Assembly: GCA_025774865.1 (NCBI GenBank)
Contig: JALGZO010000580.1
Span: 1 to 22,189, forward strand
DNA from: a bacterium
GTDB taxonomy: Bacteria > ARS69
Length of the DNA stretch: 22,189 bases
Reading direction: 5' to 3'
Positions within the stretch are counted from its first letter, which is position 1. Each line of letters starts with the position of its first letter. The notes below the pieces were generated by a model. That model was not told the DNA's origin. It did not search any database and saw nothing but the letters and a program-made list of their open reading frames with translations. This document shows positions 8,709-11,988 of the stretch, in pieces. A program made the translations under genes and the position numbers.

Positions 8709-10004
8709 TCAAACTGGCGGAGCTGGCCATGCCGCGCTCGACACGGACTCCTCCACGCGCTCGATGTCGGCGCCTACGGCCCGCAGCTTCTCCTCGATTC
8801 GCTCGTACCCACGATCGATGTGGTAGACGCGACTCACGCGAGTCTCCCCCTCCGCGACGAGCCCCGCGAGGATCAGGGCTGCGGATGCGCGCAGGTCCGT
8901 CGCCATGACCCTGGCGCCGGAGAGCCCCTGGATGGGATGGATGACCGCGGTGTTCCCTTCGAGCCGAATGTCGGCGCCGAGCCGGGAGAGCTCGGCCACG
9001 TGCGTGAATCGGTCGGTGTAGATCGTGTCGGTAATCACGCTGACGCCCTTGCCGACCGAGGCGAGCGCCATCATCTGAGCCTGCATGTCGGTGGGGAAGC
9101 CCGGGTACGGAGCGGTGACGATGCGCATTCCCACGGGGGGCGTCACCCCCCGGCAGCGCACCTTCCCCTTCTCCACGTCGATATGCGAACCCGCGCGGCG
9201 AATCGTCCGAATGACGCTGTCGAGGTGGCGCACGCAGGCGCCGGTCAGCGTGAGATCTCCGCCGGTGATCGCCGCCGCGACGAGGAACGTCCCGGCCTCG
9301 ATTCGATCGGGAATGACGGACACGCGAGCCGGCGCCAGCCGTTCGACGCCGTCCACCCGGATCATCCGGCCGCCCTGTCCTTCGATCCTCGCCCCGCACG
9401 CCACGAGGAAGTCCGCGAGCGCGACCACCTCCGGCTCCTCCGCCGCATTCTCCAGCGTCGTGGTGCCGTTCGCCGTCGCACAGGCCAGCAGAGCGTTGCA
9501 CGTTGCGCCGACGGACGAGATGGGAAAACGGATGGCGGCCCCCGTGAGCCCACCGGGGGGCGCGGTCGCGACGAGGTAGCCGTGCTCCACCTCGACCTGG
9601 GCCCCGAGCCGCTCCATCGCCAGGACATGAAGATCGACCGGCCTCGGCCCCCAGGCACATCCGCCGGGCAGCGAGACGCGCGCGCGGCCGACGCGCGCCA
9701 GCAGCGGCCCGAGCACGTAGACGGATGCGCGCATCTGCCGGACGAGATCGTATGGCGCTTCGTACGACTCGAGACCGGCGCCGTTCAGCGTGATCGTCTT
9801 GCCGGCGCGGCTCGTGGAGATGCCGAGACCGCCGAGAAGCTCGAGCAGCGTGTCGATGTCCCGGAGCTCCGGGACGTTGTCGACCAGCAGCTTGTCGTCG
9901 AAGAGGATGGACGCCGTGAGGATCGGTAGCGCCGTGTTCTTGGACCCGCTGACGTGAACCTCGCCCTCGAGCGGTCCGTTTCCTCTCAGGAGAATGGCAT
10001 CGAT
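8709..10004 (-). CDS. murA: UDP-N-acetylglucosamine 1-carboxyvinyltransferase MurA, apparent ATC start
   Basis: MurA catalyses the first committed step of peptidoglycan synthesis, adding enolpyruvate from PEP to UDP-GlcNAc in the cytosol. From the ATC at 10004 the protein has 431 residues (E. coli 419). It shows SGSKNTALP with Lys22/Asn23, APYDLVRQMRAS, the catalytic-loop cysteine in SLPGGCAWGPRPVD (Cys116, so fosfomycin-sensitive type), FPTDMQAQ, and the closing YHIDRGYERIEEKLRAVGA. No ATG, GTG or TTG occurs in frame upstream of codon 91, which is far too late because it would delete Lys22. The ATC codon aligns without gaps to Met1 of E. coli MurA (xDAILLRG... K22 N23). ATT at 9995 is an alternative. 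The gene overlaps prmC by 19 bp and is the last of the rho-to-murA series. Confidence 0.93.
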   Translation of the reverse strand: MDAILLRGNGPLEGEVHVSGSKNTALPILTASILFDDKLLVDNVPELRDIDTLLELLGGLGISTSRAGKTITLNGAGLESYEAPYDLVRQMRASVYVLGPLLARVGRARVSLPGGCAWGPRPVDLHVLAMERLGAQVEVEHGYLVATAPPGGLTGAAIRFPISSVGATCNALLACATANGTTTLENAAEEPEVVALADFLVACGARIEGQGGRMIRVDGVERLAPARVSVIPDRIEAGTFLVAAAITGGDLTLTGACVRHLDSVIRTIRRAGSHIDVEKGKVRCRGVTPPVGMRIVTAPYPGFPTDMQAQMMALASVGKGVSVITDTIYTDRFTHVAELSRLGADIRLEGNTAVIHPIQGLSGARVMATDLRASAALILAGLVAEGETRVSRVYHIDRGYERIEEKLRAVGADIERVEESVSSAAWPAPPV

Positions 10005-10924
10005 CGGTTTTCCCCCCCCGCCCAGATTCCCCGCACGAACCGATCCCGGCCGGTCAGATCCGGCAGGACCTGCACCCCCTCGTACCGCAGATCGGCCAAT
10101 ACCGCTACCACCTCCGGACCCTGCGTCTCCCCGATCTCCAATGCGATCGTGCCTCCCGCCACGAGGAAGTCCCGCCCCCGCCGCGCGATCCGCCGGTGAA
10201 AACCGGTGCCGCCGTCCGGGTCGAACAGGGCATCCGCAGGATCGCCCATCCTCACTTCCACGGGAAGCGTGTCGGAAACGGTCGGTTCGACGTACGGCGG
10301 ATTGGACACGAGAACGTCGATCCTCCCCTCCAAATCGGCAAAAGCGGAGAAGAGATTAGACCTCCGGACGTCGACCTTCTCGGCCACGCCGTTTTCCTCC
10401 GCGTTACGTCGGGCCAGGCGCACGGCCTGAGGGTTCCAGTCGGCGGCCCAGACCCGCACCTCACGCCGATCGCGGAACTCCGCCGCGACCGCGATCGCGA
10501 CCGCGCCGGTTCCCGAGGCGATGTCGAGAACGCGGACGCGGCGACGACCGCCCTCTAGACGACTCCTCACGGCGATCACCGCCTCCTCCGCGAGGAGCTC
10601 GGTCTCCGGACGCGGAATGAAGACTCCGCGCTCCAGCCGAAGCGTGATGCCGTGGAAGCCCGTCTCGCCCAGGAGAAGCTGCAAGGGCACCCCGGTCGCC
10701 CGCTGGCTCACGAGGTGCCAATAGCGTTCGGTCTCGGACGTCGGGGCGAACTCGCCGCCGTGCGTGATCAGATGTTCGCGGCCGCAGCCGACCGCGGCCA
10801 TCAGTAGCACCGACGCTTCGTGCCGAGGATTCTCGCGCGCCGCGCACTCCGACCACTCGAGCTCGCGCGCGCCGGCCTCGACCAGCTCGCGCAGCGTGGT
10901 GGGCTTGCGACTCCCGGCGATCAC
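9986..10924 (-). CDS. prmC: Release factor glutamine methyltransferase PrmC (HemK)
   Basis: PrmC methylates the glutamine of the GGQ motif in peptide release factors, using S-adenosylmethionine. The 312-residue product has an N-terminal helical substrate domain, the SAM-binding motif [16 protein letters not shown], and the family signature NPPY (VSNPPYVEP). The GTG at 10924 overlaps the prfA stop as GTGA and puts the helical domain at the expected position; longer in-frame ORFs run into prfA. Its substrate RF1 is encoded immediately upstream, the common arrangement. The C-terminus is odd: after [10 protein letters not shown], where homologues usually end, a run of eight G adds [10 protein letters not shown] and the frame runs into the start of murA. 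A miscounted G run would change this tail. Confidence 0.95.
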
Positions 10925-11988
10925 TCTTTCGTCCCTTCGAGCTTGAGGCTCACGACCTTCTCCCGCAGTGCTTCCACGATCTGATCGAGCTCGCCCTGGA
11001 GAACACCGTCGATGTCGTGCAGGGAGAGCCCTATGCGGTGATCGGTGACTCTGTTCTGCGGAAAGTTGTACGTGCGAATCTTCTCCGAGCGATCGCCCGT
11101 TCCGATCTGGCTGCGCCGAGCCTCCGCCCGCTCCGCCGCTGCCGTCTCGCGTTCCCGGTCGAGAAGCCGCGAGCGTAACACGCGAAGCGCCTTCGCCTTG
11201 TTCTTGTGCTGGCTTTTCTCGTCCTGGCACGACACGACGATTCCCGTCGGGATGTGGGTGACGCGCACCGCAGAGTCCGTGGTGTTCACGCTCTGGCCCC
11301 CGGGCCCCTGCGAGCGGAACACGTCGATGCGGAGTTCCTCGGGTTCGAGCTGCACGTCGACCTCCTCCGCCTCCGGCAGAACCGCCACCGAGACCGCCGA
11401 AGTATGGACCCGGCCGCTGGCCTCGGTCTCCGGAACTCGCTGGACTCGGTGGACACCGCTCTCGTGGCGCATCGCGCCGAACGCCCCCTCTCCCTGAAGC
11501 GAAAAGACGGCCTCCTTGACGCCGCCCCTCCCGCTCTCGTGGACCGAGAGGGTTTCCGCCTTCCAGCCCCGGTGGTCCGCGAAACGAAGATACATCCGGT
11601 AGATCTCTCCGGCGAACAACGCCGCCTCGTCCCCACCGGTGCCCGCGCGCACCTCGATGATGGCGTTGCGGGAGTCGTCCGCATCCTTCGGGATCGAGAG
11701 GACCCGCAGGCGTTCTTCGAGCGCCTCGAGCTTCGGCTCGAGCACCTCCACGTCCTGGCCCGCGATCTCGCTCAGCTCGGCGTCCGGGCCCTCGGCGAGC
11801 TCGCGCGCCTCGGTGAGGTCCGCCTCCACTTGCTCATACTCCTGAGCTGCGGTCGCGAGCTCTTCGAGCTCCGCGCGCTCCTTGCCGAGCTCGCGCATAC
11901 GGTCGACGTTGGAGAGGACCTCGGGTGACGCCAACATCTCGCTGATTTCCCGGTACCGCGCGAGAGACGAACGGGCGAGCTGGTTCAT
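10921..11988 (-). CDS. prfA: Peptide chain release factor 1
   Basis: RF1 recognises UAA and UAG in the ribosomal A site and triggers peptide release. The 355-residue protein has the N-terminal helical domain, the codon-reading PxT tripeptide (PET within [14 protein letters not shown]) that marks RF1 rather than RF2, and the GGQ loop ([17 protein letters not shown]) that enters the peptidyl-transferase centre. Length matches the family (E. coli 360). Its ATG overlaps the DUF1385 stop as ATGA and its stop overlaps the prmC GTG as GTGA, so DUF1385, prfA and prmC are probably translated as a coupled series. Confidence 0.97.

Follow-up and report, generated by a model that had tools for sequence, protein, structure and literature searches.

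The murA gene analysed here encodes an essential enzyme of cell-wall synthesis, and at the position where its first methionine codon belongs stands ATC, which as AUC is a rare start codon. How, then, is the protein made? The gene lies in a 22,189-nucleotide stretch of DNA (the window) from a 4.7 Mb metagenome-assembled genome (MAG) that comprises 785 contigs, with 8.3% contamination. A sequence-only reading of the window had offered three answers: true initiation at ATC, a ribosomal frameshift that fuses MurA to the product of the preceding gene, prmC, or an error in the sequence. We compared the locus across five genomes of the phylum, one per genus and all of one family: the window's own (G000) and four relatives (G001 to G004). 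The comparison strengthened the first answer and weakened the other two, and we consider it very probable, on the sequences compared, that AUC is a genuine near-cognate start codon at which translation of murA begins. The features concerned are collected in Table 1.

Table 1. Positions in the window of the features discussed in the text
Feature	Position	Strand	Remarks
murA (UDP-N-acetylglucosamine 1-carboxyvinyltransferase)	8709..10004	−	431 codons from ATC, plus stop; TIGR01072
murA start codon ATC	10002..10004	−	sole start-like codon at Met1
First canonical in-frame murA start (ATG, codon 91)	9732..9734	−	a start here drops Lys22/Asn23
prmC	9986..10930	−	GTG start overlaps prfA stop; TIGR03534; tail collinear in G004
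G8 run (C8 on the + strand), putative Shine–Dalgarno core	10012..10019	−	ends 7 nt before ATC

The murA frame and the end of prmC

Read from ATC, MurA is a full-length match to the TIGR01072 profile, with a score of 524.7 bits against a curated cut-off of 392.7; residues 4–416 of the protein correspond to positions 4–416 of the profile. Because residue 4 aligns with profile position 4, the ATC codon itself falls at position 1, the Met1 position, just where the sequence-only reading had placed it. The codons GAT GCC ATT CTC follow. Upstream, the frame is open for 117 codons, to an in-frame stop at 10355, and contains no ATG, GTG or TTG. Direct reading of the frame thus bears out the earlier statement that the first canonical codon is codon 91, and no canonical start in the frame could yield full-length MurA. 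An out-of-frame ATG is present at 9998–10000, 4 nt past the A of ATC, in the prmC frame, and this meets a TGA after four codons. The same ATG occurs in G001 and G004 but not in infC, and it probably reflects the prmC tail.

The prmC gene (TIGR03534; 214.9 bits, cut-off 199.1, also by profile search) ends with TGA at 9988–9986, and so overlaps murA by 19 nt. Within it, just upstream of ATC as first described, lies the G8 run; the window has no other run of 8 bases. The suggestion that this run could serve as a Shine–Dalgarno (SD) sequence is supported by its predicted pairing: the duplex of the region with ACCUCCUUU has a computed energy of −10.4 kcal/mol at a spacing of 7 nt. For comparison, nine canonical starts of the window give −2.5 to −9.8 kcal/mol, and random sequence of matching GC content has a median near −3.8 kcal/mol. 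The 3′ end of 16S rRNA in G003 is the normal GGATCACCTCCTTT; that is, the anti-SD of the phylum is normal in that genome.

Homologous start codons in related genomes

The codon homologous to the first of murA is ATC in G001, GTG in G004, ATG in G002 and CTG in G003. A search of relatives for ATG at this position thus found it in G002, and found ATC and GTG instead in G001 and G004; the position itself is matched by the canonical starts of G004 and G002. The genome of particular interest is G001, a 67%-complete MAG of a different genus, whose MurA is 74% identical to the window's. It shares the sequence ATCGATGC at the murA start, and the same 19-nt overlap with prmC, and its SD energy is −12.2 kcal/mol. 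An in-frame TGA lies six codons upstream of its ATC, only GGG GGG TGT GGT CCC intervenes, and no canonical start appears for 75 codons. What supports initiation at AUC is that this codon recurs in a second genus, together with a strong, G-rich SD sequence 7 nt upstream inside the end of prmC, and an overlap of identical length. In G003, the gene could begin with CTG at Met1, with an SD sequence at 4 nt, or with ATG at codon 4, with an SD sequence at 13 nt.

In a wider survey across many phyla, 108 MurA loci could be scored, of which some were fetched twice. Within a few codons of Met1, 82 have ATG, 12 have GTG and 11 have TTG (105 together); the remaining three rows are the window genome and G001 (twice), all with ATC. 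Six further loci, read by eye, are canonical. Judged across these sequences, ATC at the Met1 position is not a product of chance: among the scored loci, only G000 and G001 lack a canonical start. Within the family, ATC occurs in two of the five genomes, and the one independent instance comes from a single other MAG, G001. G001 and G004 have the most similar MurA proteins (80% identity), and G000 comes next. ATC is not strictly conserved, since the nearest relative of G001, G004, starts the gene with GTG; ATC would be either ancestral to the group with the prmC overlap, with GTG in G004, or else acquired twice.

These comparisons bear on the alternatives to initiation at AUC. An error of sequencing or assembly, in which a true ATG or GTG was misread or the Gs of the run were miscounted, would be easy to suspect in so fragmented and partly contaminated a MAG, at a codon close to a homopolymer. 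It would, however, have to have happened identically, in the same context, in two MAGs of different genera. The prmC tail of G004 (GGGAGGGGAAAACCA GTG) is collinear with that of the window genome without gaps across the G run, which confirms the length of the run, and ATC is two changes removed from the GTG of G004. We regard an error as very unlikely. A −1 frameshift at the G run, with a PrmC–MurA fusion as the sole source of MurA, is hardly more credible. The window genome has both a slippery G8 run and an open frame, so that ribosomes slipping there would indeed pass into the murA frame without meeting a stop, and six Gs stand in a row in G001, too. But the TGA in the murA frame of G001 lies just ahead of its G run; in G004 the run is interrupted (GGGAGGGG) and a GTG stands in frame; the prmC of G003 stops short of murA; and G002 has no prmC tail that overlaps murA. 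The combination of slip site and open frame expected of a programmed frameshift is not conserved, and the run sits at an ideal distance for an SD sequence. Initiation at an in-frame CTG seven codons upstream (10025–10023) can be set aside as the least probable alternative, since this codon has no counterpart in G001 and the GTG and ATG starts of relatives align with ATC.

Other near-cognate starts in the lineage

Initiation factor 3 (IF3) is present in the lineage. Its gene, infC, is on contig C87 of the window genome, and the product matches solved IF3 over its full length. Five genomes were searched for infC, and in all four in which it was found, the gene starts with ATC. The window genome reads GAGGAGGACTAGTCC ATC GAT AAA, where an in-frame stop stands two codons ahead of ATC; in G003, an in-frame stop directly precedes it. 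SD energies at these infC starts are −10.3 to −11.6 kcal/mol, and the spacing for the ATC codons of murA and infC alike is 7–8 nt.

A third gene, hflX, has CTG as its start codon in three genera: G000 (contig C19, minus strand), G001 and G002. In G000 and G002 this CTG is the only sensible start and shares bases with the stop codon of a rex-like gene (CTGA); in G001 it lies a few bases past that stop. G004 has ATG at exactly this residue (M-GKRRERSAENADH, versus L-NKRRERSAQNADH in G001). Near-cognate starts are not, therefore, confined to murA. The hflX gene surfaced when change-points in codon usage were used to look for coding sequence ahead of first canonical starts; the scan otherwise returned mostly antisense or overlap artefacts. 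Orthologs were compared over approximately 140 kb of G000, 0.65 Mb of G002 and 1.2 Mb of G003, and among 323 best-hit pairs 49 ORFs were flagged, of which infC, murA and hflX were judged real. Nearly all of the others were rejected by inspection, as having a canonical start just past a conserved, off-frame upstream gene. The tally of near-cognate genes is a lower bound, because the test passes over any gene whose true start is soon followed by a canonical codon.

One further gene drew attention: behind an acyl-carrier-protein gene of G002 (contig C17, minus strand), a KBL-like, PLP-dependent acyltransferase gene has 150 codons of open frame without a canonical start, and conserved sequence begins approximately 100 codons earlier. 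This gene has either a near-cognate start or a sequence error. An initiator tRNA with a changed anticodon was considered as well: among the 29 tRNA hits of the window genome, which is incomplete, ARAGORN found two CAT tRNAs, neither with initiator features as read, and thus did not recover the initiator. A literature search for AUC starts with infC, or for murA with prmC and start codons, returned nothing relevant.

Probable initiation at AUC and its possible regulation

How might initiation at AUC proceed? The fMet-tRNA would initiate at AUC by pairing of the initiator tRNA with only the first two bases; this poor codon would be compensated for by the strong SD sequence inside prmC, and ribosomes terminating at the prmC stop just downstream might help, too. 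IF3 rejects near-cognate start codons, and, by analogy with infC and Streptomyces sigR, initiation at murA may be kept low and IF3-sensitive. The level of MurA could be tied to that of IF3, because infC of the lineage also starts with AUC and has an equally strong SD sequence at the same spacing; synthesis of MurA would then follow the autoregulated level of IF3 itself. We put the likelihood of such control, which is argued by analogy, at about one half. The deliberate brake proposed in the sequence-only reading is plausible, and we give nearly even odds to a brake under selection and to one that is simply put up with.

The main rival to regulation accepts that AUC initiation is real and takes it to be passive: a weak start that is tolerated and persists by chance, or because prmC codons overlap it, and that has no regulatory meaning. 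We rate this a little short of even, and about as likely as regulation. ATC overlaps a serine codon (TCG) of prmC, and the near-cognate start of hflX may mean that the lineage is lax about start codons. Yet prmC of G004 tolerates a change here (Trp for Ser), so the overlap does not force ATC, and the SD sequences at ATC starts are stronger than those at most canonical starts.

To our knowledge, few near-cognate start codons have been characterized, those of infC and sigR being the examples. Near-cognate starts of infC—AUU in Escherichia coli, ATC in Streptomyces—are repressed by IF3 (PMC5472188). The murA gene resembles this system in its AUC start and its strong SD sequence at 7–8 nt, as does the lineage's own infC. 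It differs in that it encodes a cell-wall enzyme rather than IF3 itself, and control by IF3 would apply to it by analogy. The GTC start of Streptomyces sigR, which has an extensive SD sequence, was shown experimentally to be repressed by IF3, and is kept across Streptomyces (PMC5472188). Like sigR, murA is a gene other than infC with a conserved near-cognate start, an extensive SD sequence and a start that gene callers would misplace; unlike it, the codon, gene and phylum are different, and ATC is found in two of five genomes rather than across a genus. Deinococcus deserti, too, has non-canonical start codons (Baudet et al. 2010, as cited in PMC3305630), and, as far as that citation conveys, offers a parallel for such starts beyond infC within one lineage.

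In genomes such as these, standard gene callers would trim 90 residues from MurA, among them Lys22 and Asn23. A conserved AUC on murA, together with the AUC of infC and the CUG of hflX, would bring cell-wall synthesis within the reach of IF3-sensitive initiation. More speculatively, and we think it rather unlikely, infC, murA, hflX and perhaps more genes with near-cognate starts could form a translational regulon that responds to IF3. If true, a ribosome-associated GTPase and the cell's commitment to cell-wall synthesis would both be coupled to the level of an initiation factor.
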